Source: Desulfuromonadales bacterium
Lineage (GTDB): Bacteria > Desulfobacterota > Desulfuromonadia > Desulfuromonadales > JAAXQG01
NCBI GenBank assembly: GCA_012974445.1
Contig: JAAXQG010000151.1
Span: 1-40,800 of the forward strand
Reading direction: 5' to 3'
DNA length: 40,800 nucleotides
Shown here: one piece after another, positions 19,879 to 35,341 of the stretch
Layout: each line of letters opens with the position of its first letter
How positions within the stretch are numbered: the stretch's first letter is position 1
Notes under the pieces: generated by a model
Databases searched by the model: none
Seen by the model: only the letters and a program-made list of their open reading frames with translations
What the model was told of the DNA's origin: nothing
Made by a program: the position numbers and the translations under genes

Positions 19879-20409
19879 ATGAAAAAACACTTTGGCGGCC
19901 CGGCCATCTGTCTGGACCGCGACGATATCAATACCGATGAAATCATCCCTGCCAAGTACCTCACCGAGGTGACCAAGGAGGCTCTGACTCCCTATATCCT
20001 GGAAGATCTGAAACTCGAAGGTTTCGACCCCAGGGGGCAGAAGCTCAAAAACTCGAAGGTGGTCGTGACCGGAGGCAATTTCGGATGTGGTTCTTCGCGC
20101 GAGCACGCTCCCTGGGTATTCGAGGTCAACGACATCCACACGGTCATTGCCGAGAGCTACGCACGGATTTTCCGCCAGAACATGTTCAACTGCGGCATGC
20201 TCGCTATCGAGCTGCCCAAGGCCGACATTGCCGCCATCATTGCCCTGGGGCGTGATGCCGAGCTGGAGGTCGCTGTGGATCTTCCCTCCAGGAAGATCGA
20301 GGCCAGTGCCGCCGGAAAAAGCCTGAGCTTTTCCTTCGACATCAGCCCCTTCGACGCCGCCCTGGTTGACGCCGGCGGCTGGGTTGAGTTCGCCGACTCC
20401 AGGTACTGA
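19879..20409 (+). CDS. leuD: 3-isopropylmalate dehydratase small subunit
   Basis: MKKHFGGPAICLDRDDINTDEIIPAKYLTEVTKEALTPYILEDL...VVTGGNFGCGSSREHAPW. Confidence 0.94.
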   Translation: MKKHFGGPAICLDRDDINTDEIIPAKYLTEVTKEALTPYILEDLKLEGFDPRGQKLKNSKVVVTGGNFGCGSSREHAPWVFEVNDIHTVIAESYARIFRQNMFNCGMLAIELPKADIAAIIALGRDAELEVAVDLPSRKIEASAAGKSLSFSFDISPFDAALVDAGGWVEFADSRY

Positions 20410-20437: not shown

Positions 20438-20479
20438 ACAGAAAAGCCCCGTCTGAATTAACAGACGGGGCTTTTCTGT
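20438..20479. terminator. Perfect 18-bp inverted repeat, probable bidirectional terminator between leuD and the tad locus
   Basis: ACAGAAAAGCCCCGTCTG-AATTAA-CAGACGGGGCTTTTCTGT; A/T tracts within the arms in both directions. Confidence 0.85.
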
Positions 20480-20504: not shown

Positions 20505-20642
20505 TCAAAGCACCTGATTCAAGACCAGCTTCGTTCGCTATCCCGGGGATTGGTGCAGAAGCGGCTGGTGCTTTCCCCACTGACCTGTCCAGTCAAACGG
20601 ACCACCTCTATGGAGCACCACGGTCATGGTCAATCCATCTGA
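20505..20642 (-). pseudogene. Decayed 3'-end fragment of an amino acid ABC transporter ATPase gene
   Basis: Minus-strand SDGLTMTVVLH...GKHQPLLHQSPG*RTKLVLNQVL* aligns with [11 protein letters not shown]...[23 protein letters not shown] of the intact gene at 32832-33566; DNA similarity at 20505-20577 vs 32832-32904 includes TCA(A/G)AGCACCTGATTCA and CAGCTTCGT, with a 1-nt indel, in-frame stop and internal deletion. Confidence 0.8.
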
Positions 20643-20733
20643 GGTAAAACCTCTGGGCAATGTCCTGTTTTTTAACCTGCAAGCAGGTGGTGAACTTTGA
20701 ACCTGTATCTACCGATACGTTGGACCGTTGGGC

Positions 20734-21171
20734 TTAGTTTCCTCCCCAAGTCAGGTTTTTTGAAATCCAGCCTACATTGCCCGATTGGTGGTGAATTTTA
20801 ATCCAATCTTCTTGGTATTCAAGAACCATGAAGCTGACACCCTTCTCAGCCTTGAACAGCACGCGATTGTCAGTGCCCGGACCGCTTCTGATGTTTGCCG
20901 GGCCACGTTGGACCACTACTGCAGATGCTTTGCTCACAAGGGGTTTATAAATCCACCCTTCCTTGTTCCGATAGTCCGCCACCCTGAAAAACTGGTTATT
21001 GCCCTCAAGAACTGTTAACGGGTAGTACCGAGGAACCTGAAGGACAATCATGGAGCCTGAAAGAGATGGGAAACTCCGGATGTTGGCCGAATCAGCAGCG
21101 ACCGAAACTGTTTCACCCGTCGCAGTGCCGCAGCAAAGGATGATAATCGAAAGAGCCAGTATGAATTTCAT
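20734..21171 (-). CDS. Secreted SH3b-domain protein
   Basis: Signal peptide MKFILALSIIILCCGTATGETV; two SH3b-like segments (SANIRSFPSLSGSMIVLQVPRYYPL...; ANIRSGPGTDNRVLFKAEKGVSFMVLEYQEDWIKIHHQSGNVGWISKNL). Confidence 0.8.
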   Translation of the reverse strand: MKFILALSIIILCCGTATGETVSVAADSANIRSFPSLSGSMIVLQVPRYYPLTVLEGNNQFFRVADYRNKEGWIYKPLVSKASAVVVQRGPANIRSGPGTDNRVLFKAEKGVSFMVLEYQEDWIKIHHQSGNVGWISKNLTWGGN

Positions 21172-21266
21172 GTTGCCTCCTCTCCATTCCTGAATCGTCT
21201 CGGGACTTCTCCTTAGCTGCTGCGTTATTTCATGGTTCGGCGAACACCGGTTGGCAGAATGACCAT

Positions 21267-22223
21267 TTATTGAGCGCTTATTTGCAGTTGGTTGAGATTT
21301 GTTTTAGCCCGAGTATAGAATCTGGGCTTCAGCTGAAGGGCCTTGTTGAAGGCCTCTCTGGCTTTATCCTGGTGCCCTTGGCTCATGTAGGCGTAGCCCA
21401 AATTGTTGAAGGCTTCAGCTTCCCCGACGGCTGTAATAAAATGTTGAAGCGCCTTTTGTTCCTGGCCAGAAAGGGCATAGGCCAGAGCGAGATTGTTGTG
21501 CAGTTTTTTGTCTGTCGGGGCAAGACTCAGTGCTCTGCTGAAGGACTGAATTGCCAAGTCGTATTTTTGCTGCAAGAGGAGGTTGAAGCCTAGATTGCCT
21601 TGTGCAAAGGCTTGCCCCGGAGACAGGCTTGCAACATCACGAAAAAGGTTCTCGGCTTCAATTTCTTTGCCCTGCCAATCATAGATAATGGCTAATTCCG
21701 TCAGTGCTTCCAGGTTTTTCGGCTCTATGTCGATTACGGATTCTATTACCTCACGGGCGCCCTCAATATCCCGTTGCCACCGCAAGAGTCTTCCCTTTTC
21801 CAGAAGGGCTATGAGGTGTTCAGTGGCGCCTGCTGGAATTGCATTTAAGGCTTGCAGCGCCTCAGGGTACTTCCCCAGTCTTGAAAGAGTTTTCCCCAGT
21901 CCAAGAAGGGCAGTTGTGGAATCAGGGTTTCTGGATAGGGCGGTACTGAAATGCAGGCTGGCTAGGGAAAAGTCGCCGGAATCAAGGTAGGAGTAGCCTT
22001 GATGGAGCAAGGCGTCCAGGGGGAGGTTTGAAATCTTGCCCTCTTCGATCTGCTCCGGAATCCTCTTGCTAGTCTCTGCCGGCAGTTTTGTTGCCGTTGT
22101 GGTGCAGCCGGATAGCACAAGTACGATAAGGAATATTGCCATCCTCACCGATCTGCAGCATGACGACTTCAATCCTTCGGCTCTGCGCCCATCTGTTCCG
22201 GAATTGCCGAGATTTTCCATCAT
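21267..22223 (-). CDS. tadD: TPR-repeat lipoprotein, TadD-like
   Basis: Lipobox LVLSGC plus TPR repeats; last conserved gene of the Tad operon. Start uncertain (MAIFLIVLVLSGC possible). Confidence 0.8.
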   Translation of the reverse strand: MMENLGNSGTDGRRAEGLKSSCCRSVRMAIFLIVLVLSGCTTTATKLPAETSKRIPEQIEEGKISNLPLDALLHQGYSYLDSGDFSLASLHFSTALSRNPDSTTALLGLGKTLSRLGKYPEALQALNAIPAGATEHLIALLEKGRLLRWQRDIEGAREVIESVIDIEPKNLEALTELAIIYDWQGKEIEAENLFRDVASLSPGQAFAQGNLGFNLLLQQKYDLAIQSFSRALSLAPTDKKLHNNLALAYALSGQEQKALQHFITAVGEAEAFNNLGYAYMSQGHQDKAREAFNKALQLKPRFYTRAKTNLNQLQISAQ

Positions 22224-23218
22224 TACCCCCCCACGGACGCAAAAATCGAGTCAATTATCTGGATAGCGGCCGGGCCCACCAGAACGACAAATATGACAGG
22301 GAAAATAAACAATACAAGCGGCAGCATCAACTTTACGGCTGATTTTGCCGCTCTCTCCTCTGCATCCTGCCTGCGTTTTATTCTCATGCCATCCGAATGA
22401 ATTCGTAATGCCTTTGCGATGCTTGTACCGAAGCGGCTGGTCTGAGAGAGCACTGTCATCAAGTTGGAAATTTCCGGCACTCCTGTGCGGGTGCTCATGT
22501 TCTTGAAGCTTTCGTCTCTGGCGCGCCCGGCGCGTATCTCAAGGTTGGTCAGGTTGAATTCTTCGCTCAGGGCCAGGCTAATGGAGGCCATTTCATCGCC
22601 AACTTTTTTAATTGTCATATCAAGTCCAAGCCCCGCTTCTACACAAAGGACCATAAGGTCAAGAGCGTCAGGTAGCGCCCTGGTAAGGTTTCTTTTTCTT
22701 CGGTGTACCAGGTAGTCAAGGCACATGTCCGGTAACAGAAAACCTATTACGGCGAGTACAGCGGTAATCAATAACGTTTGGGAACTTAACTTGTAGAGGG
22801 CCATTGTAGCGAACATGGAAATCAGGACGAGACCAAGGGTGAAAAAAATCTTTATTGCAAGGTATTTGGTGTAAGCACGTTGTGATCTGAATCCCGCCTG
22901 TACCAGCCGGGTTTTTAATTTCTTAGTAGGGGTGTTTTTTTCCGTCCCGGTGATGCTGTGAAGAGGTTTTGTCAGCTTCGCCAGGAACTCATTGCCGTCT
23001 TCTTCGATGATTTTTGGCTTTTCAGGGGTAGTTGCAGAATCAGGCCCTGTCGATAGGAGACGCTTCAACCTGTCTTTGGCGTTTCGGTTGTTAAGAAAAA
23101 AAACGCAGACGCCACCCGATGCCAGTGAGACAGAGACAAAAACAAGGAATAACAGTGACAGGTAGTCAAGGTTCTGCAGTGCCTGGTAGATGATGGAGAT
23201 GATTGCGTTCATGGCCAC
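22223..23218 (-). CDS. tadC: Type II secretion system F-family protein, TadC
   Basis: RALPDALDLMVLCVEAGLGLDMTIKKVGDEM...RTGVPEISNLMTVLSQTSRFGTSIAKALRIHSDGMRIKRRQDAEERAAKSAVKLMLPLVLFIFPVIFVVLVGPA. Confidence 0.92.
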   Translation of the reverse strand: MAMNAIISIIYQALQNLDYLSLLFLVFVSVSLASGGVCVFFLNNRNAKDRLKRLLSTGPDSATTPEKPKIIEEDGNEFLAKLTKPLHSITGTEKNTPTKKLKTRLVQAGFRSQRAYTKYLAIKIFFTLGLVLISMFATMALYKLSSQTLLITAVLAVIGFLLPDMCLDYLVHRRKRNLTRALPDALDLMVLCVEAGLGLDMTIKKVGDEMASISLALSEEFNLTNLEIRAGRARDESFKNMSTRTGVPEISNLMTVLSQTSRFGTSIAKALRIHSDGMRIKRRQDAEERAAKSAVKLMLPLVLFIFPVIFVVLVGPAAIQIIDSIFASVGG

Positions 23219-23221
23219 CCC

Positions 23222-24199
23222 TTAAATCTCAATTTTGACGATCTTCCGTATGAAAATTATGCCGACTATCTGTGAAGCGATGCCAATAAGCATCATCTGC
23301 CTGCCAATCTCTTCGGTCCACAGAAGAGAGATGTAATCAAAATTGACAAAATACAGGTATGCAAAGAGCAAGATGGGCAGGGCGATTAGTATGCCGGCAG
23401 ACATTCGTCCTTCCGCCGTCAAGGCTTTCACTTGCCTTTGAAACTGGTCCCGTTCGCGCATGAGACGACTGAGGTTGTCGAAAATTTCCGCGATATTCCC
23501 TCCCGTCTCTTTCTGGATCTGAATTGAGATGGAAAAAAATCTCAAATCCTGAACAGGAACTCGTTTACAAAGATTGTTAAGTGCCTCATTGATGGTCAAG
23601 CCCAACTTGATTTCATCGACAAGGGTGGCGAATTCGGATCGAATAGGGTCTTCCATCTCTTCTGCCACCATATTCATGGCCGATGAGAGGGCATGGCCGG
23701 AACGCACGGCCCTGGCCAGCAGATCAAGGGCACTGGGGTATTGCTCCTTGAATTTCCGAAGCGTGGATTGTTCGGAGGCTCTCAGGAAAAAATAGGGGAG
23801 GCCGCCACACAGCAGGGGCAGTGCGACGATCAAGGCAACCTGGGCATTCAGAGCGAAGGCGAGGGCAATGCCTAAACCGCCAAAAGCAAGACTGCCAAGT
23901 ATAAAGGTCGTGGCATTCAGAGGGAGCTTGGACCTGAGCAGCATACGGTCAAGTTTGGCAACACGGGGTAGTTCCAGGGCCAGCTTTTCTATGATGCCAG
24001 CATCCTTGAGGGCCTTTTCCTTGTAGAGATTAAGTGTCTCGTTGCCCTGCATGCCCCCGGCGGACATGAGTAGAAGGCGTTTCTTGATCTGTCGCTTCTG
24101 CTTGAAGTGACTCTCTTTCCACATCAGGAAAATGAAACCGACCAGAGTGGAGACAAAGAAGAAAACCGAAAACATTAAAAAGAAGGTTAGGGTGTCCAT
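23222..24199 (-). CDS. tadB: Type II secretion system F-family protein, TadB
   Basis: FKEQYPSALDLLARAVRSGHALSSAMNMVAEEMEDPIRSEFATLVDEIKLGLTINEALNNLCKRVPVQDLRFFSISIQIQKETGGNIAEIFDNLS. Confidence 0.92.
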   Translation of the reverse strand: MDTLTFFLMFSVFFFVSTLVGFIFLMWKESHFKQKRQIKKRLLLMSAGGMQGNETLNLYKEKALKDAGIIEKLALELPRVAKLDRMLLRSKLPLNATTFILGSLAFGGLGIALAFALNAQVALIVALPLLCGGLPYFFLRASEQSTLRKFKEQYPSALDLLARAVRSGHALSSAMNMVAEEMEDPIRSEFATLVDEIKLGLTINEALNNLCKRVPVQDLRFFSISIQIQKETGGNIAEIFDNLSRLMRERDQFQRQVKALTAEGRMSAGILIALPILLFAYLYFVNFDYISLLWTEEIGRQMMLIGIASQIVGIIFIRKIVKIEI

Positions 24200-24220
24200 T
24201 GGACCTCCTTTGACCAGGGA

Positions 24221-25549
24221 TCAAAATGAAAAGAGTTCCTCCGGCAGGTAAACTCCGGCGAGCTTGAGTTTTTCAGCAAATCTGGGTCGGATTCCGGTGG
24301 CTTTCAATTTGCCAAGAACCTTGCCTTGCGGATCGACGCCCCGTTTTTCATACTCAAAAATATTCTGTAGGGTGATGACTTCTCCCTCCATGCCTGCAAC
24401 TTCGCAGATGGCGCTCACCCTGCGGCTACCATCGGCCATACGTTGAACCTGAATGATCAGGTCGAGGGCAGAGGCGACCATGAACCGCATTGCCTTCTCC
24501 GGAAGGTTGATTCCGGTCATCAGAATCATGGAGTCGAGGCGAATCAGGGAATCCCTTGGAGTGTTGGCGTGAATGGTGGTGAGGGATCCCTCGTGGCCGG
24601 TGTTCATGGCCTGGAGCATGTCAAAGGCTTCGGAACCCCGGACCTCTCCGATGATTATGCGATCCGGTCGCATTCGAAGACTGTTTCGCACCAGATCCCT
24701 CTGGTCGAAAATGCCGTTTCCCTCGATGCTTGCCGGTTTTGTCTCCAGGCGCACCACGTGCTCCTGTTGCAGCTGCAGCTCAGCCGAGTCTTCGATGGTG
24801 ATAACCCGCTCCTGAGAGGGGATGAAGGCGGAGAGGACATTCAGCAGGGTGGTTTTTCCCGAGCCCGTGCCTCCCGAGATCATGATGTTGAGCCTGGCCT
24901 TGACGCAGCCGCCAAGAAAAGAGGCGATCTCCGGGGTCAGCGCCTGAAGCTCAATCAGATCTTCAACCTTCAGAGGCTGTACGGCAAAGCGGCGGATTGA
25001 GAGCATCGGGCCGTCCAGGGCCAGGGGAGGGATGATGGCATTGACCCGGGAGCCGTCGGTCAGCCTTGCGTCAACCATGGGGGATGATTCATCAATCCTT
25101 CGACCGACCTTGGAAATAATGCGATCGATAATGTTCCGCAAATGGGCATTATTGAGAAAACGGGCGTCTGTCTTCTCCAGCAGACCGAAGCGCTCGACAT
25201 AGATGTGCTGGTAGGTGTTGCACAGGATGTCGGACACCGTGGGATCTTTCAAAAAAGGCTCGATCGGCCCCAGCCCGATGAGTTCGTCCAGAATTTCGCT
25301 CACCAACTCTGCTTTCTCGGAGCTGTTGAGCGGTACTTTTTCCTCCATCAGGAAGTGATCGATAATCTGTGCCACCTCTGTCTCGATTTCATCCGAACTC
25401 AACTTATCAAGGGCCTTCAGGTTGATCTGCTCAATCAGGCGCGAATGAATCCTGTGTTTCACTTCATAGAAGAAGTCACCCTTCGAAGGGGAGGGGGCAT
25501 TGAGTCCGGGCTCAGATGATGTCTGTTGCAGAATGTTTTTCAAACTCAC
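24221..25549 (-). CDS. tadA: TadA/CpaF-family secretion ATPase
   Basis: [56 protein letters not shown]...[48 protein letters not shown]. Confidence 0.96.
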
Positions 25550-25558
25550 GGTGTCCTC

Positions 25559-26755
25559 CTAAAAGGCTCGTCCGAAAAAGGTCCTCAGGCCACGATATTT
25601 CTTGGCAGAATCCTGAATCTTCTGGTCTTCGGTTCGCCGGAGTTTTCCTACGAAATCCCCGATACTCCTGGAGAACGGGCAGCGGGGACGGCTGCTGACC
25701 AGGGGAATCCCCGTGTTGATGGAGGTGAATACGTTTTCGTAGTCATTGGGAAAGAGCCAGAAAACCTGTTTTTTAAGCGTCTTCTCCACATCCTGAAGGC
25801 CGAGTTCCCCGCCTTTAATGAAGCGGTTGACAACGATTTCGATTTTTCCCTGATCCACCCCAAGCTTGAGCAGCAGCTGCATAAGGCGAGACGCATCTCG
25901 GATGGAGGTGACGGAGAGATCCGTGATCAGAAAGATTTTTGTGGCGACATTGAAGACTTCTAGAGCGCAGTCGTTGACCTGCATGGAGGCACAGTCGATG
26001 ATGACGGTCCTGTAAAGTTTCTGGAGAATCTGAAGGATCTGTCGTACATGCAGCGCGCTGATGTCTTCGTGTTGTTCCGGGCTCGTCGGGGCCGCCAGAA
26101 ACTCAATCCCGCTGCTGTGACTGACCAGGATGCTGCTTAAAAAGGCCGCATCCAGGCGATGCATGTTGGTGCAGGCATCGTAAATGGTGTGCCGGGGCAC
26201 GCTGTCCAGCAGGACGGAGCTGTCTCCAGACTGAAGACTCATGTCCATCAGGACTGTAGATTCTTTCAGCAGAGTGGAAAATGCGATGGCTGTATTCACC
26301 GCCAAGGCAGTGGCGCCAAGGCCTCCTTTGGAACTTAGAAATGCGAAAGTTTCTCCACCGCTGCTGAGTCGGGTCTCGGTCAGTTGCTGGCGGATTTTTT
26401 CAACTGCATCGGTCAAGGTCCCGTGCTTCATGGGCATCTGGAAATACTCGGAGACACCGGCTTTCATCACTGCGATGATGCGTTCCGGCCTCATGTCCTC
26501 GGAGAGGATAAAAACGGCGCTGTTCGGAAAGGCGCGCAGCAGGGCGAATATTCTCTCAAAGATGTCATCGCCGCTTTGTTCATCGTGGATGAGGATGACA
26601 TGAGGAGCGTTTTGGGTTGAAACAGCCCCTTTTTCAGCCATCGGGTCAAACCACTGCATTGCGGTGACATCCGGTATCTGCTCCAGTTCGCGGAGAATCT
26701 CCGTGCTCAGATTGAAGTCAGATATTTCGACGGCGATGATGACCTCTGGATTCAT
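25559..26755 (-). CDS. CpaE/TadZ-like ParA-family protein
   Basis: Receiver-like N-terminus then FAFLSSKGGLGATALAVNTAIAFSTLLKESTVLMDMSLQSGDSSVLLDSVPRHTIYDACTNMHRLDAAFLSSILVSHSSGIEFLAAP. Confidence 0.9.
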   Translation of the reverse strand: MNPEVIIAVEISDFNLSTEILRELEQIPDVTAMQWFDPMAEKGAVSTQNAPHVILIHDEQSGDDIFERIFALLRAFPNSAVFILSEDMRPERIIAVMKAGVSEYFQMPMKHGTLTDAVEKIRQQLTETRLSSGGETFAFLSSKGGLGATALAVNTAIAFSTLLKESTVLMDMSLQSGDSSVLLDSVPRHTIYDACTNMHRLDAAFLSSILVSHSSGIEFLAAPTSPEQHEDISALHVRQILQILQKLYRTVIIDCASMQVNDCALEVFNVATKIFLITDLSVTSIRDASRLMQLLLKLGVDQGKIEIVVNRFIKGGELGLQDVEKTLKKQVFWLFPNDYENVFTSINTGIPLVSSRPRCPFSRSIGDFVGKLRRTEDQKIQDSAKKYRGLRTFFGRAF

Positions 26756-26802
26756 ATCCTCTGTCCAATCGGTAGGGTAAAGCGCTTCCCGTTGTCTCTC
26801 TT

Positions 26803-28173
26803 CTATTTCACCAGTACCGGTATCCTGGCCAGTACGCCAAAATTCACTCCCCCCGTCACGCCGGCGGGTTCATGGGGCTCGCAGTCCGGCATGAAGTACA
26901 TCGATTTTTTTTCCAAAGGGGCATAGGCTTCGTCGGCATTCTTCAGATTGAAATGTTTGACGAAGCAGTCCCATCTGGCCATCCCCGCGGTGTACGTTGA
27001 TTGTCCCTGCCATCGATCCGGGCCCCCGAAACCCAGATTGGCGAGAGCAACCGTCGTCGGATTGTCAATTTGTGATTCGAATGGTTCGCACTGGCCCGAT
27101 TCGAAATTCCAGTCGGCAATGTCGGCGTTCGGGCTCTCCATGCTGTCCGGGGCATCCGCTGGTTTGGCCGTTCCTGATTCGGTCATCCAGAGCATGTTCA
27201 CTGTGACGGCGCCGATAACCGTCGGACAGTTTCCGATATTCTGACCCGTACAGTCGGCGACAGGCAAGGTCATCTCCCAGGCTCGAGATCCGTTTGTGGT
27301 GTTTAATTCCCAGCAATCCCTCATCCGTTTAAAGGCAGATTCCAGTTCTCCTCCCGTTGCCGCCAGTGGCTCCCCGAGGGTGAGGGGATCCGGATTTCCT
27401 CCTGAGCAGACAAGAGACCTAACCTCGCTGGCATTTGTCCCGTTGCACGTGTCATCCGTCTGATCGAAGCTGGTCCAGCCTGCGGTGTTGGAGGTTGCGG
27501 GGTCGGAGCCGCTGTTGATCATCCTGCCCACATTGCAGCTGTATTCATCGTCTCCGTTAAGGATGCTGCTCTGGCAAATGGCGACAGGCTGATCAACTTC
27601 CCCCGGGCCAAGAGTACCGGCAAAGCCTATATAGGCAATGGCCTCGGCGCTCAGCGCGACTTCGTTGAAACCCAGCACCTGGGCGAAAAAGAAGGTTACC
27701 GGATTTGTCTGCCTGCGGGCGGTGACCCTGACAGCATTGATAAAGTTCAGGTTGGCATCCAGTTCCTCATCGCTGACACCGGCCAGTGAAACCGGCTCCA
27801 GGGAGGGGTTGGGCGTGAATGTCTTGTCGGAAAAGCTCCAGTGCCCCCTTTGGCTGTCGCCGTCGTTTGTCCCCGCAGTCCAGTGCACCTCTGCTGCCAG
27901 GCCATCGCTTCTGTTTTGCGTGGCCGTTTCGAAGGCGATGCGGTTGGCGTCGGCATTGACCTGTTGCCCGTCATCGTCATAGAGATCCTGGGCTCCGGCC
28001 AGGGCTCCTGCATCGGCGGCGTTCTGGAGTTCATTTTTGACTACATGGAGGCGGCTGATGTCGATGGCCAGCGCTGCCACACCCAGAAAGACAAGGAGCA
28101 GAAGTGCCACCAGCACAAGGGTTGCTCCTCGTTGATCTTTCAGGTTGAACTGCATCGGTAATCTGTCCCGCAT
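26803..28173 (-). CDS. TadG-like Tad pilus assembly protein
   Basis: N-terminal QRGATLVLVALLLLVFLGVAALAIDISRLHVVKNELQNAADAGALAGAQDLYDD. Confidence 0.87.
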   Translation of the reverse strand: MRDRLPMQFNLKDQRGATLVLVALLLLVFLGVAALAIDISRLHVVKNELQNAADAGALAGAQDLYDDDGQQVNADANRIAFETATQNRSDGLAAEVHWTAGTNDGDSQRGHWSFSDKTFTPNPSLEPVSLAGVSDEELDANLNFINAVRVTARRQTNPVTFFFAQVLGFNEVALSAEAIAYIGFAGTLGPGEVDQPVAICQSSILNGDDEYSCNVGRMINSGSDPATSNTAGWTSFDQTDDTCNGTNASEVRSLVCSGGNPDPLTLGEPLAATGGELESAFKRMRDCWELNTTNGSRAWEMTLPVADCTGQNIGNCPTVIGAVTVNMLWMTESGTAKPADAPDSMESPNADIADWNFESGQCEPFESQIDNPTTVALANLGFGGPDRWQGQSTYTAGMARWDCFVKHFNLKNADEAYAPLEKKSMYFMPDCEPHEPAGVTGGVNFGVLARIPVLVK

Positions 28174-28184
28174 CGCCTTGACTC

Positions 28185-28586
28185 CTATTCCAGTCGCATT
28201 CTTGTCTGCGCCTGCAGGTTAATGCCTCCGGTCAGGTCGGTAATGAAGGCCGGCATCAGAAGGAAGTCGTATTGATATGAAAGAGTGACGGTCAGATGTT
28301 CGGCATCAATGACAGGGGTAGTGCTGTAGCTGCTGGTCCCTCCGAAAGTAATAAGAGATGAACCTAGATAGTTGGAGGTGGTATCGGTGATCACTGCGGT
28401 CCTTTCATCGTCCGAAAGGCCAAAGACCACGCCGGCCCTGGCGGCCTCGCGGCTCGCATTGGTGAGCATCGCCTTGTCATAGAAAAGCACACCGAATTCG
28501 ATAATCCCGAAGACCAGCAAAAGAAGCAGTGGCAGGATGATGCCGAATTCGACACTGGCGGCTCCTCTCTGTTTCTGCTTGTTCAT
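28185..28586 (-). CDS. TadE-like pseudopilin
   Basis: MNKQKQRGAASVEFGIILPLLLLLVFGIIEFGVLFYDKAMLTNASREAARAGVVFG; TadE-like motif. Confidence 0.88.
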   Translation of the reverse strand: MNKQKQRGAASVEFGIILPLLLLLVFGIIEFGVLFYDKAMLTNASREAARAGVVFGLSDDERTAVITDTTSNYLGSSLITFGGTSSYSTTPVIDAEHLTVTLSYQYDFLLMPAFITDLTGGINLQAQTRMRLE

Positions 28587-28671
28587 GGCCTGAACCTCCC
28601 GTCGATACCGTTTACCCATCTTCGTTTCAACCCATTAAATTGTCTGACACTTTCATGCCGAAGAAAGCGGC

Positions 28672-28941
28672 TTAGTTCCCCCTGCCACCTTTGCCTGAGA
28701 GGCCTAACTCCATGACATTGGTCTTCTGTCGCTTCAGGGCGTAAGAATTGGTATCGGCCTTCATGATCTCTTCGGCCACGATACCCGTGGTCCCCTCAGG
28801 TATCGTTTGCACGGCTTCGGTTCTAATGACCTGGGATTTCCATACTGCATTTTGAGCCTGCCCGAACTCCGCATCGACCAGGGGCGCGGTACATCCGGTA
28901 AGCACAAGGAGTGGTATTGCGATAGCGATGAAAGCTTTCAT
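28672..28941 (-). CDS. Small putative lipoprotein in the tad locus
   Basis: MKAFIAIAIPLLVLTGCTAPLVDAEFGQAQNAVWKSQVIRTEAVQTIPEGTTGIVAEEIMKADTNSYALKRQK...; lipobox LTGC; 89 aa. Confidence 0.72.
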   Translation of the reverse strand: MKAFIAIAIPLLVLTGCTAPLVDAEFGQAQNAVWKSQVIRTEAVQTIPEGTTGIVAEEIMKADTNSYALKRQKTNVMELGLSGKGGRGN

Positions 28942-28954
28942 GTTCTGGTCCCCC

Positions 28955-30457
28955 TCATTGTTCGATACTGACCGGTTGGTAGCCGAAAGAGCCTTCCAGC
29001 CCGCCTGGCTGTTTCATATTCCTGTGATTTGCCGACGATTGTTCTTTGTTTCCGGAGTTCAGTCTTCGCCCTTCCAGGCGCCCTTCGAGGTAAAATTCAT
29101 ACCAGTTCGGAGGCTGGAAATTTTCTCCCGGGAATTCAAGGTCGCTGCCGGAAATGGGCTTGATAAGTCGCGGGGTCACTGCAATCAGCAGGTCCGTTTT
29201 CTCCTGAAGGTAGGAGGTGCTTTTAAAGAGAGCCCCCAGCACGGGAATGTCGCCCAGCCCCGGGATTTTTCTGACTTCCTCGCGCAGGTTGTCCTGGAGA
29301 AGACCGGCCAGGGCAAGGGTCTGACCATCATACAGCTGTACCGTGGTTTCAAGTTTTCTCGTGGACAGGTTGGGAATGATGAATTCCGCCCCGAGGATCC
29401 CTGCCGGGAAGGAGCTTGTGGAGGATATCTCGCTGACGGTTGGCGCTACGCGCAGGGTTATTTTCCCATTGCTGAGAACCACCGGCGTGAAGACCAGAGC
29501 CACTCCGAATTCCTTGAACTCGACGGTAATTGTATCCAGCCCCTGAGCTACTGGAATTGGAAACTCCCCACCGGCGAGAAACTTGGCCTCATGACCGCTC
29601 AGGGTTACCAGCCGAGGTTCCGCCAGTACGCGCGCAAGGCCCTCAGTTTCCAGAAACTTCAGCGCCGTGGTGACGTTATCTATTTTTGCGAATATGTTGG
29701 CTGCCGAACCGACACCGTCAAAATTTGCGAAGTTCACGAGAAGCGTGCGGGTGGAGGCTCCAAGGCCTCCGTCGGTGAGATTGCCGAGGGAACCCACCCC
29801 GAACTGTCCGCCGAAGCTTTTACCCAGCTTGGTCAGCCCCAGAGCTGCCTGCCAGTCTTTTTCGGATCGTCTTGTAATCTCTGCAATTTTCACTTCAAGC
29901 ATCACCTGCTGGTTTCCTTCGACCATAAGCAGGTTGGTTATTCCCGGGAAAGACTTGCCGCTACCTTCCTGTTGGTCCTGTTCTTCAGCCTTTTCCGGGA
30001 GATATGCCTGGGTAAGCCTGAGTACCTGTTCAACAATTTCGGGGCCCGATACCGATCCGGAAAGCACTACACCCGTTTCCGAGGCGTAAACTTCAATGTT
30101 CTGCCGGGGGTAGAGTTTATGGAGTTTTTCCTTCAGGGCTGTGAGATCCAAAGCGACAACAAGGTCCAGAATGGTCCTTCCCTTGCCCTCTTCCCAGAGC
30201 ATGATGCTGGTGTAGCCGACTTCTTTTCCGTACACATAAATCTCTCTGGGAGACAGGACAAAGACATCTGCAATGGCCGGGTCGGCAATTGAGACCCGTT
30301 TTACCGCATGGGTGGTTTCAACAAGTTCCGCACCGCCGAGTTTGAGTTCGACCGTTGAGCGGTTGATTCCTGCTGCCCAAACAAGAGAGGCAGACAAGGT
30401 AATCAAGGAGAGGGTCAGTAGACTGAGGTGAACGATGAAAATGCTCTTGCGGAACAT
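28955..30457 (-). CDS. cpaC: CpaC/RcpA-family outer membrane secretin
   Basis: Signal peptide, pilus/secretin N-terminal region, secretin core VEGNQQVMLEVKIAEITRRSEKDWQ...LVTLSGHEAKFLAGGEFPIPVAQGLDTITVEFKEFGVALVFTPVVL...IPGLGDIPVLGALFKSTSYLQEKTDLLIAVTPRLI. Confidence 0.95.
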   Translation of the reverse strand: MFRKSIFIVHLSLLTLSLITLSASLVWAAGINRSTVELKLGGAELVETTHAVKRVSIADPAIADVFVLSPREIYVYGKEVGYTSIMLWEEGKGRTILDLVVALDLTALKEKLHKLYPRQNIEVYASETGVVLSGSVSGPEIVEQVLRLTQAYLPEKAEEQDQQEGSGKSFPGITNLLMVEGNQQVMLEVKIAEITRRSEKDWQAALGLTKLGKSFGGQFGVGSLGNLTDGGLGASTRTLLVNFANFDGVGSAANIFAKIDNVTTALKFLETEGLARVLAEPRLVTLSGHEAKFLAGGEFPIPVAQGLDTITVEFKEFGVALVFTPVVLSNGKITLRVAPTVSEISSTSSFPAGILGAEFIIPNLSTRKLETTVQLYDGQTLALAGLLQDNLREEVRKIPGLGDIPVLGALFKSTSYLQEKTDLLIAVTPRLIKPISGSDLEFPGENFQPPNWYEFYLEGRLEGRRLNSGNKEQSSANHRNMKQPGGLEGSFGYQPVSIEQ

Positions 30458-30476
30458 GACGGTCTCCTTTGCTCAT

Positions 30477-31310
30477 CTAGAGTCTTTCTTCTGACTCGAC
30501 ATTTTTAAAACTAATTTTCTCCGGATCTTTCTGCCCCCTGAGTATTTCAACCGAATAGGGGGTTGAAGGGGGAACGACGACCCTTGATTTCAATGTCGGA
30601 ATTCTCTTTTTAGGAGGCGGTTCCTTGACGGGGGGAAGAGTCTCTTCAACCAGGGGATTGCGCAGCACGAGATGGATCTCTCCGCTGTTGGTTTGCAGTG
30701 CCAGGGCCTCAGCCTCTTCAGGAAGGAGTTCCAGGGTTACAGTCTTGACCAGTTGGGGTTTTCCTTCTTCGATAAAGGTCTCCTGAGCGACAGCCAGAAC
30801 CTCGATGTTTTTCAGAATGGTTTCTGCAAATTTTTTTCTGTCTTTTCGTTCAATGACGGCCACGACATCAACGAAGGTGTTTGGAAGTATGAATCCCCCC
30901 ACCCCTGTTTCTTCATTCACGCGAATGGACATGGCCCGCTTGTTGGGTTTGATCTTGGCGAGCAGGCCGGCCCCGGACCCCGGGGAGGCCAGCGATGCGG
31001 CGATCACGGGCATGCCCGCATTGATAGGGGTGACGGCGACCCTTCCCTCGAGTTCCTTCAAATCCGTGAAAGCCCCCCTGGGAACATTCGCTTTGGGCCA
31101 TTGAACAAGGGAGAGGTTGGCTTCCAGCAATCGCATGCCGATGTCGACATCCTTGGCTGCAATAGCGATGAGTGTTATAGGGATTGTCGATTGGATTACG
31201 GGAGTTTCAGCAGACACTTGAGATTCAAGCCACCTGTTGGTGAGTGCAACAGCTGCCACGCCGAAGAGCACCGCCAGGCCCAAAACCAGGATTGCCGCAT
31301 ACTTTTTCAT
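30477..31310 (-). CDS. cpaB: CpaB/RcpC-family Flp pilus assembly protein
   Basis: N-terminal TM, SAF-like DVDIGMRLLEANLSLVQWPKANVPRGAFTDLKELEGRVAVTPINAGMPVIAASLA...KRAMSIRVNEETGVGGFILPNTFVDVVAVIE. Confidence 0.93.
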   Translation of the reverse strand: MKKYAAILVLGLAVLFGVAAVALTNRWLESQVSAETPVIQSTIPITLIAIAAKDVDIGMRLLEANLSLVQWPKANVPRGAFTDLKELEGRVAVTPINAGMPVIAASLASPGSGAGLLAKIKPNKRAMSIRVNEETGVGGFILPNTFVDVVAVIERKDRKKFAETILKNIEVLAVAQETFIEEGKPQLVKTVTLELLPEEAEALALQTNSGEIHLVLRNPLVEETLPPVKEPPPKKRIPTLKSRVVVPPSTPYSVEILRGQKDPEKISFKNVESEERL

Positions 31311-31404
31311 TGCTCACACCTCACGAATCTGTTTATGAAGAGGCCAACCTGTGAAATCCGCTGAGCTACAGGCTAACAAAGAAATTCGATTTGAAAAGAA
31401 GTCG

Positions 31405-32013
31405 CTAAATGAATCCGCCCCAGCCCTGGAAAGAGAAGTACCCAAAGGCAATGGCCGAGGCGTAAGGAAATCTCTGCGTTTCGCCCCGAGGCTCTGGTCT
31501 GAAGAGGCCCGGATCACGGGTATATGCGAAAATCCGTAGATTTGAGAGCAATTTAAGGCTGCGCTTTCTAAGCTGAGGCACCAGGGCGCAGTGGAGCAAG
31601 GCGATGAGGCCACCGATCAGTGCAACATAGAGAAAGACATTGAAGATGGCAGCCGGGCCCAGGATCGCACCCATCGCAGCGAGAGCTTTTACGTCTCCCG
31701 CGCCCATTCCGCCCAGCAGGTAGGGGATGATAAGCAGGGAAAAACCGATACCGATCCCGCCGAGGGCATTTAAGAGGCCGGCAACTCCAGAGGAAGAAAG
31801 TCCAAGGTAAACGCCGGACAGGAGAAGGACCAGGGACGCGGGGTTGGGAATCCGTGTCAGGAAGGTGTCCGTTGCAACAATAAGGAAGAGGTAGCAGGAA
31901 CAGAACAGAACAGTCGTGTCCAAATTTGAAAAGGAAAGAAAAAGCAGAGAGAGGGACATGGATGCTGCTCCCATCACATAGCGCAAGAATTCTTCATCGC
32001 AAGACCATCCCAT
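31405..32013 (-). CDS. A24-family prepilin peptidase (TadV/CpaA)
   Basis: DTFLTRIPNPASLVLLLSG...YLLGGMGAGDVKALAAMGAILGP (GxGDVK motif); GGAGG SD. Confidence 0.92.
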   Translation of the reverse strand: MGWSCDEEFLRYVMGAASMSLSLLFLSFSNLDTTVLFCSCYLFLIVATDTFLTRIPNPASLVLLLSGVYLGLSSSGVAGLLNALGGIGIGFSLLIIPYLLGGMGAGDVKALAAMGAILGPAAIFNVFLYVALIGGLIALLHCALVPQLRKRSLKLLSNLRIFAYTRDPGLFRPEPRGETQRFPYASAIAFGYFSFQGWGGFI

Positions 32014-32094
32014 CTCTCTGCCTCCTGAATTGAAGAGCTAAACATTTTAGGTGTCAAATTTAACAGCCATAAAACTTAACGTTGATACAGACTG

Positions 32095-32277
32095 CTATGG
32101 CGTCGTCCCCGTTATTTTAGTGTTGACGGTCTCAAAGGCAGTATTGACTGTGCCTCCAAGAGTTTTTACTGCGACAACCATGACGGCGGCAATCAGGGCC
32201 ACCATGAGTCCGTACTCTACAGCTGTTGCTCCGCTTTCATCGGAGAGGAAATTTGCCAGCATTCTTTTCGTTTTCAT
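32095..32277 (-). CDS. flp: Flp/Fap-family type IVb pilin (copy 1)
   Basis: MKTKRMLANFLSDESGATAVEYGLMVALIAAVMVVAVKTLGGTVNTAFETVNTKITGTTP. Confidence 0.95.
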   Translation of the reverse strand: MKTKRMLANFLSDESGATAVEYGLMVALIAAVMVVAVKTLGGTVNTAFETVNTKITGTTP

Positions 32278-32438
32278 GATTTATTCCTCCTTATTGGGGA
32301 AGTCGGTTTGAAAACATCACATTCACAGGTTGCTTGAACTTAGGGTGGTCTGATTGCGTGACTGCTGCGAACTCCTAGCATCTGCCACCTCCTTTCTTGA
32401 ATACTTGAATCCCCTGGCCTGTTTTGGAAAAGCGGTAA

Positions 32439-32612
32439 CTACCAGGGTGCCTCTAAGACTTTGGCGAATAACAACACAACTTGGTCTCCCAAGCTCATCA
32501 CCACCGCTACAATAACCGCCGCCACAAGAGAGGCCATGATGGCATATTCGATCGCCGTGGCCCCTCGATCCTCTTTCAGAAACCGCTTGATAAAGTTGTC
32601 TCGAATAGTCAT
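32439..32612 (-). CDS. Second, divergent Flp/Fap-family pilin (57 aa)
   Basis: MTIRDNFIKRFLKEDRGATAIEYAIMASLVAAVIVAVVMSLGDQVVLLFAKVLEAPW* read on the minus strand; Flp G|ATAIEY cleavage motif. Missed by the ORF track for length. Confidence 0.9.
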   Translation of the reverse strand: MTIRDNFIKRFLKEDRGATAIEYAIMASLVAAVIVAVVMSLGDQVVLLFAKVLEAPW

Positions 32613-32752: not shown

Positions 32753-32799
32753 TGTGGAAAAAAAGAAACGCCCCCTCCGGTGGAGCCGGAAGGGGCGTA
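32753..32799 (-). terminator. Terminator downstream of the ABC transporter operon
   Basis: Minus strand: ACGCCCC-TTCCGG-CTCCA-CCGGAGGGGGCGT hairpin followed by TTCTTTTTTTCC. Confidence 0.75.
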
Positions 32800-32831: not shown

Positions 32832-33566
32832 TCAGAGCACCTGATTCAGAAACAGCTTCGTCCGGTCTTCCTGGGGGTTGGTGAAGAAGTGCTCGGGCGT
32901 TCCCTCTTCAACAATTTTCCCCTGATCCATGAACAGAACGCGGTCGGCCACCTCGCGAGCAAACCCCATCTCGTGGGTGACCACGACCATGGTCATGCCT
33001 TCGGCGGCAAGTTGCTTCATGACGTCGAGCACCTCGCCGACCATCTCGGGATCCAGAGCGCTGGTGGGCTCGTCGAAGAGCATTACCTTAGGGTTCATGG
33101 CCAGAGCGCGGGCGATGGCCACGCGCTGCTGCTGACCTCCGGAGAGGCGGGAGGGATATTCATCCTCCTTAAATGCGAGACCGACCTTGTTGAGCAGGGC
33201 TCTGGCCTTTTGTTGCGCTTCGGAGCGTTTTCGGCCGTGGACGACCTGCTGGGCGAGGCAGAGATTCTCCAGCACCGTTTTGTGGGGGAAGAGGTTGAAC
33301 TGCTGAAAGACCATGCCGACTTCACGGCGAACCCTGTTGATATCGGTTCTGCGATCGGCAAGATTGAGACCATCGATGCAGATGCTGCCGCTCTCGAAGG
33401 ATTCCAGGCCGTTCATACAGCGCAGACAGGTGGATTTTCCCGACCCCGAGGGACCGATGATCACGACCACTTCGCCTTTGCTGATCTCCAGGCTGACATC
33501 ATCCACGGCGCGCACGATCTGTCCGCGACCCTGAAAGGTTTTAACGACATTTTCGACCTTAATCAC
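32832..33566 (-). CDS. Polar amino acid ABC transporter ATP-binding protein
   Basis: [34 protein letters not shown]...[67 protein letters not shown]; GlnQ-like. Confidence 0.96.
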
Positions 33567-34518
33567 TGACTGCGAACCTCCTCTCCATCCAGAAAATAAT
33601 CTGCGACAGCAGGGATGTAAGAATCAGGTACATAGCCGCCACGGTGAACCAGACCTCGAAGGTGGCGAAGGTCGAGGTGATAACCTCGCGGCCGCCTTTG
33701 GTCAGGTCGGTGATGGCGATGACCGACACCAGGGACGAATCCTTGATCAGGCTGATAAACTGCCCGGCCAGGGGGGGGAGGGTGCGCTTGATGGCCTGGG
33801 GCAGGATGATATTCTTCATCGCCTGAGGCACGGTCATCCCCAGAGAGCGGGCCGCTTCCATCTGTCCGCGGGGCACGGACTGGATCCCGGCGCGGATGAT
33901 CTCGGCCACATAGGCGCCGGAGAAGATGGCCAGGGCGCCGATACCGGCCACGTGGCGATTCAGGTCGAAGACCGTGCCAAGGAAGAAATAGAAGATGAAG
34001 ATCTGGACCAGCAGCGGAGTGCCCCGGATCAGTTCGACATAGAGGATCGCCAGGTGCCGTACGCAGTAGTTGCTGGAAATCCGGCACAGACCGATCACCA
34101 GTCCCAGCGCCATGCCGATGATACCGGAGAAAAAGCTGATCCAGAGGGTAACCCCGAGGCCTTGAAGCAGGGGGCCGAAGCGCCACTCACTGATGGAGCC
34201 GAGGTAGTCCCCCTCGAAGAGTTCGTCGCCTTCACTGACTTCCAGCGTTTTGGTATCGACGCTGATCTCCAGAGTCTCTCCCGTGTCGCTCTCCAACGTC
34301 AGCAGAGCCGATTTATCAGCCTCGACGATCTTGTGCACACGGCCGTCGAAGGGGATCGGCTGGAGTGTTTCGCTCTGGTAGATAAAATACTGGGGGACCC
34401 GTTGCCAGCGCCAGGTGTAGTCGATTTGTTTGGTGGCGCCCCATATACCAGCCGCCATCATCAGGATGATGGCGGCCAGCAGAAGTTTCCAGGGCCAAAG
34501 GGCTTTTTGAGACTGCAC
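33559..34518 (-). CDS. Amino acid ABC transporter permease with N-terminal extracytoplasmic extension
   Basis: HisM/GlnP-type core [29 protein letters not shown]...[17 protein letters not shown]...[30 protein letters not shown] after an extra TM and ~90-aa region. Confidence 0.94.
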
Positions 34519-34543: not shown

Positions 34544-35341
34544 TTACTGCAGCTGCTTCATCCAGGAATCGCTCAGGAACCACTTTTTGTAGATCTTGTC
34601 GTAGGTCCCATCGTTTTTGGTCTGATTCAGGAAGTGATTCAGCCAGTTGATCAGGTCGGCATTGCCGCGACGGACTCCCCAGGAGATCGGCTCGTAGGTG
34701 AAGGGTTCGTCCAAAAAGACGAGTTTCCCCTCGCCGCGCTGGGCAAAGGCGATGGCATTGTAGGGCAGGTCGTAGATGAAGGCGTCAGCCTTGCCGTTGG
34801 TCAGCTCCATGATGCCTTCCTGCTCGGTCTCGAAGCTGATGTAGGTCGCCTTGGGAATCATGCGCTTGGTGGCCTGCTCTCCGGTGGTGCCCAGCTTGGA
34901 GATGACCTTGTATTTGGGGTCGTTGAGGTCTTTGTAGGACTTGATCTCTCCTGCCAGTTCCTTGCGCAGCAGGATGGTCTGACCGATGACGACATAGGGA
35001 TCGGCAAAGCTGAGCTGGAGGTTGCGCCCCTGGGTCAGGGTCATGCCGCTCATGATGATGTCGAATTTTCCGGTGAGCAGCGAGGGGATGATACCGTCCC
35101 ATGCGGTGCTCACCAGTTCCAGCTTCACGCCCATGGCCTTGGCCATGCGCTTGGCCATGTCTGCGTCGAAGCCGACGATATCTCCCCGCTTGTTTGTGAG
35201 CTCGAAGGGCATGTATCCGGGCTCCATGCCGACGCGCAGGGTGCCGCGTTTGAGAATATCGTCCAGGGTGTCAGCCAGGGCGCTGCCGGCGCTGAACGTC
35301 AGACAGCACAGAGTCAGGATAAGTGCGAGAATCTTCTTCAT
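34544..35341 (-). CDS. Amino acid ABC transporter substrate-binding protein
   Basis: Signal peptide; LDDILKRGTLRVGMEPGYMPFELTNKRGDIVGFDADMAKRMAKAMGVKLELVSTAWDGIIPSLLTGKFDIIMSGMTLT; SBP family 3. Confidence 0.96.
   Translation of the reverse strand: MKKILALILTLCCLTFSAGSALADTLDDILKRGTLRVGMEPGYMPFELTNKRGDIVGFDADMAKRMAKAMGVKLELVSTAWDGIIPSLLTGKFDIIMSGMTLTQGRNLQLSFADPYVVIGQTILLRKELAGEIKSYKDLNDPKYKVISKLGTTGEQATKRMIPKATYISFETEQEGIMELTNGKADAFIYDLPYNAIAFAQRGEGKLVFLDEPFTYEPISWGVRRGNADLINWLNHFLNQTKNDGTYDKIYKKWFLSDSWMKQLQ

Follow-up and report, generated by a model that had tools for sequence, protein, structure and literature searches.

Why does the spacer behind leuD in this Desulfuromonadales genome hold what reads like the tail of an ABC transporter gene, when an intact gene of that kind lies on the far side of a tad pilus locus? 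The features concerned are listed in the table, in the coordinates of the window, that is, the whole stretch of 40,800 nucleotides that was analysed. Answering the question requires knowing what the fragment is, which gene it came from, and how the pilus locus came to lie between the two.

Table. Features of the window that bear on the origin of the relic
Feature	Position	Strand	Evidence
leuD, convergent neighbour of the relic	19879..20409	plus	Pfam Aconitase_C
Near-perfect palindrome between relic and leuD	20438..20479		opposite-strand self-match, 91% over 42 nt
Relic, degenerate copy of the final ~180 nt of the ATPase gene	about 20505..20648	minus	alignments, shuffles, tree
SH3-domain protein, last gene of the conserved tad module	20734..21171	minus	Pfam SH3; follows tad-TPR in same-order genomes
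Prepilin peptidase, rcpC, rcpA, lipoprotein-like ORF, tadE, tadG, tadZ, tadA, tadB, tadC, TPR protein	21267..32013	minus	Pfam; same module in relatives
Flp-type pilin ORF 2	32095..32277	minus	translation
Flp-type pilin ORF 1, start of the tad block	32439..32612	minus	translation
Terminator-like hairpin of the intact ATPase gene	32768..32798	minus	hairpin evidence
Polar amino acid ABC transporter ATPase, GlnQ/TcyN-like, intact, source of the relic	32832..33566	minus	Pfam ABC_tran, E 1.4e-40
Permease of the same ABC operon	33559..34518	minus	Pfam BPD_transp_1; GlnP-like
Substrate-binding protein of the same ABC operon	34544..35341	minus	NCBIfam TIGR01096 best match, below cut-off; operon conserved in relatives

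The relic occupies the spacer between the stop codons of the SH3 gene (20734) and of leuD (20409), and its homology to the 3′ end of the ATPase gene is well established by several comparisons. A global alignment over the last 180 positions of the ATPase gene gave 108 identical bases among 138 aligned (78%). When the two stretches were paired in blastn, the last 77 bases matched at 60 positions (78%) with two single-base gaps (E 1e-11 for the pair). The Smith-Waterman score was 66, compared to 19.5 ± 2.5 (SD) and a maximum of 36 in 1000 dinucleotide shuffles. An upstream block of the relic (TTACCTCAGATGGATTGACCATGACCGTGGT...; SDGLTMTVV... in place of AEGMTMVVV...) is colinear with the corresponding ATPase segment and independently significant (p = 0.002). 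A search of the whole 3.35 Mb draft with the relic region returned a self-match, a match to the region's own palindrome, and, as the only other hit, the 3′ end of the ATPase gene (E 1.5e-8). The relic runs in the same orientation as the intact gene, and its frame is broken by an in-frame stop, small indels, and internal deletions, so that no open frame is left. In other words, the relic displays both marks of a pseudogene, a disrupted frame and a loss of coding constraint, and on this evidence it is a pseudogene fragment, a 5′-truncated second copy of the ATPase 3′ end.

Which ATPase gene did it come from? The tails of 136 ATPase homologues, drawn from this genome, the order, and a wider collection, were each freely aligned with the relic. 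The local ATPase scored 66, the next best tail 45, and most tails 20–30. The second ATPase of the genome (contig 229; 64% amino acid identity) was considered as a source and has no DNA match to the relic; the ATPases of other families all score below the local gene. In a tree of the 180 tail positions with 67 other homologues, the relic grouped with the local ATPase at 100% bootstrap, a pairing toward which the tree is somewhat biased by the pre-alignment of the relic row to that gene, unlike the free alignments. The tip leading to the local ATPase has a length of about 0, and the relic branch measures 0.26 substitutions per site.

Further evidence comes from the way the differences are distributed. 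The 30 differences between relic and ATPase fall almost evenly over the three codon positions (11/10/9), whereas orthologues of the ATPase differ from it at 26–36 third positions and at 4–9 of each other position (six examples). At 27 of the 30 differing sites it is the ATPase that carries the commoner orthologue base, leaving the relic as the odd one out, and of 12 ATPase bases that are rare in the order, the relic shares 10. Because of the tree, the codon-position spread, the odd-one-out sites, and the shared rare bases, the relic is best read as an unconstrained, lineage-specific copy of the local gene. By these patterns, it descends from the local ATPase, from which it split after this lineage had parted from the compared families, and has evolved without coding constraint, as a dead copy and not as a paralogue. 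It looks like a functionless piece of neutral debris left by an old local duplication or insertion rather than a working element.

These results agree in large part with the original prediction, which had described a decayed copy of the ATPase end on the minus strand. The blastn match, the genome-wide search, and the shuffles all bear this out, and the proposed translation, with its stop and internal deletion, proved right on re-reading the sequence. The choice of the GlnQ-like gene at 32832-33566 as parent, and not another ABC ATPase, is upheld by the free alignments, the tree, and the shared rare bases. The two copies do lie on the same strand just outside the tad genes (20734-32612), as had been claimed. 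The limits first given, 20505-20642, placed the copy correctly but ended it slightly too early, since it extends to about 20648.

On the leuD side, the palindrome between the relic and leuD probably acts as a bidirectional terminator, for leuD on one side and for the former ATPase copy on the other, as read from the sequence, although a simple terminator scan did not list it. A search for RNA families in the relic-leuD spacer gave sub-threshold matches only, to the palindrome. Two further genomes of the order (L004 and L005) have lookalikes of the palindrome. The idea that homology continues past the ATPase stop to a terminator common to both copies was set aside; the spacing is suggestive, the stretch before the hairpin gave p = 0.20, and hairpins are alike anyway.

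On the other side, the intact gene heads into the tad block from an operon for a polar amino acid transporter; the best NCBIfam match of the ATPase is GlnQ, yet the score is below the GlnQ cut-off. The block contains everything expected of a Tad locus: flp pilin, secretin, the TadA ATPase, TadB/C, TadZ, and TadE/G, where TadZ was called from a weak AAA match together with its position and its similarity in relatives. Two Flp-type pilin ORFs (32095-32612) open the block right after the ATPase terminator and are absent from the 80-aa ORF list. At the opposite end, the TPR and SH3 proteins (20734-22223) form a tail of the module that is conserved across many families of the order, and in the majority of the loci fetched from the order, an SH3 homologue comes after tadC-TPR. 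A Pfam scan of the tad genes found no integrase or other recombinase, and no transposase, IS, tRNA, or unexplained long ORF was found between the copies.

What did the region look like before? A total of 136 genomes of the order were searched, including this one, which is the only member of its family among them. leuD is present in 119 of the 136, own genome included, and in 13 of 20 leuD neighbourhoods leuB lies no more than about 2 kb behind it, on the same strand. Here the two genes are parted, with leuB on contig 21 (L195:7645-8736), where it comes after unrelated genes and has a histidine kinase and a phosphonate-type binding protein beside it. In relatives, the operon of binding protein, permease, and ATPase often has a drug/metabolite-type transporter gene before it and AzlC after it, with lepA nearby in some; among 18 neighbourhoods compared, 11 have AzlC close to the ATPase. 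Neither leu genes nor a tad locus was found near the ABC operon in 16 same-order neighbourhoods. The tad loci of relatives sit among other genes, and the tad-TPR-SH3 module occurs in differing chromosomal settings across the other families of the order.

No ATPase relic was found behind leuD in 21 stretches of relatives (20 fetched regions and one short extra locus), nor behind the tad SH3 gene in 15 stretches. The one hit behind SH3, in L167, belongs to a separate ABC gene of the ordinary kind. Contig 21, the leuB side of the leuD breakpoint, carries neither a missing part of the duplicate nor the usual ABC neighbours, and contig 27, which has AzlC, shows no ATPase trace. Several rearrangements met here because leuB usually follows leuD in the relatives examined and the ABC operon lies elsewhere. 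At the least, this lineage underwent a break between leuD and leuB and a move of either the ABC operon or tad, and the junction is where the relic is found.

The account we prefer, to which we give a probability of roughly 0.55, is that the relic was made in this lineage as tad took up its position separating the ATPase gene from the leuD side. The incoming DNA, a circle or a donor fragment with the ATPase 3′ end as well as tad, would have inserted through that end in a single-crossover-like event; a site-specific event there would leave the same traces. The product would be an intact gene, the insert, and then a 5′-truncated gene end in the same orientation, and the leftover fragment, having no function, would decay neutrally. 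What we infer from the arrangement is that a single event both duplicated the gene end and placed tad, and that it took this recombination route. The account is supported by the position of the two copies, which abut the two block ends on the same strand as a direct repeat of the gene end, by the different settings of the tad module elsewhere, and by the frequent transfer of Tad systems between bacteria (PMC6668835). Against it stand the lack of an integrase, tRNA, or IS between the copies, the mild GC difference, and a leuD-ABC neighbourhood, the presumed empty site, that no relative examined possesses.

The idea of an old island boundary, raised in the original prediction, is only partly supported: the 5′-truncated same-strand repeat is as expected of one, but the mobility genes are missing and the GC3 shift is mild. 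GC3 is 0.61 in the tad block and 0.67 elsewhere in the window. In relatives, the tad genes are offset from their flanks by similarly small amounts in either direction, and composition does not argue for import of tad because in several of them, too, the GC content of tad falls below that of its flanks. The neighbourhood envisaged before the insertion, with the ABC operon by leuD, did not appear in any of the relatives examined. A relic by leuD in relatives devoid of tad, which would have spoken against an insertion, did not turn up in the leuD downstream stretches.

The same final arrangement could also arise if the ATPase gene, or the whole ABC operon, was first duplicated in tandem, tad was later inserted between the copies, and the distal copy was eroded to its 3′ end. 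The evolution of the relic as a dead duplicate of the local ATPase is consistent with this order of events. However, an extra deletion ending at the tad edge would be required, and near 20.6–20.7 kb there is no trace of a 5′ part of a second ATPase, of a permease, or of a binding protein; we hold this course of events to be possible but rather unlikely. Less likely again is that the relic is a scar from some small duplication or recombination at this spot that had nothing to do with tad, in which case it would lie at the tad edge by chance. The window has few long spacers, and debris survives in spacers between genes; moreover, leuD and leuB were parted here too, so the spot was rearranged more than once. 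The same orientation of the copies, the position at the block end far from the source gene, and the presence of only one such fragment in the genome argue against a scar of this kind.

Two further explanations carry little weight. It is very improbable that the relic is the attachment-site scar of a tad island with a protein gene as its target, an element that integrates into the 3′ ends of ATPase genes for polar amino acid ABC transporters and whose integrase has since disappeared. It is barely conceivable that the sequence is no relic at all, whether because the likeness arose by chance, because a distinct and diverged ABC gene ends here, or because the assembly is at fault. Chance is refuted by a score far beyond the shuffles, and a separate gene is disfavoured by the local gene being the closest among the 136 tails. 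In favour of an artefact, the draft is fragmented and the window makes up an entire contig of it, but the copies differ at 22% of their bases, and an assembler is therefore unlikely to have joined reads through them.

The relic is thus a small fossil, overlooked by gene callers, that records a local rearrangement beside a pilus locus. It provides a concrete marker by which the arrival of tad at its present place in the lineage could be dated; alone it reveals no new mechanism. How does the arrangement compare with known systems? It resembles integration into the 3′ end of a gene, as at tRNA or protein-coding att sites by a Campbell-type single crossover, in having an intact gene, a block, and a 5′-truncated same-strand end by the old downstream DNA. 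It differs in that the block has no integrase or other mobility gene and in that the two ends have diverged by 22%. The block itself is like other Tad or widespread colonization island loci, with the standard flp, rcpC, rcpA, tadZABC, tadE, and tadG, but in this order it ends with TPR and SH3 genes, and no mobility genes were seen in this copy. In its neutral substitutions, stop codon, indels, lack of an open frame, and single copy, the relic matches ordinary bacterial pseudogene fragments and does not differ from them in kind; all that sets it apart is where it lies, at the edge of the tad block. As a pseudogene fragment it is ordinary, and its position is mildly informative.
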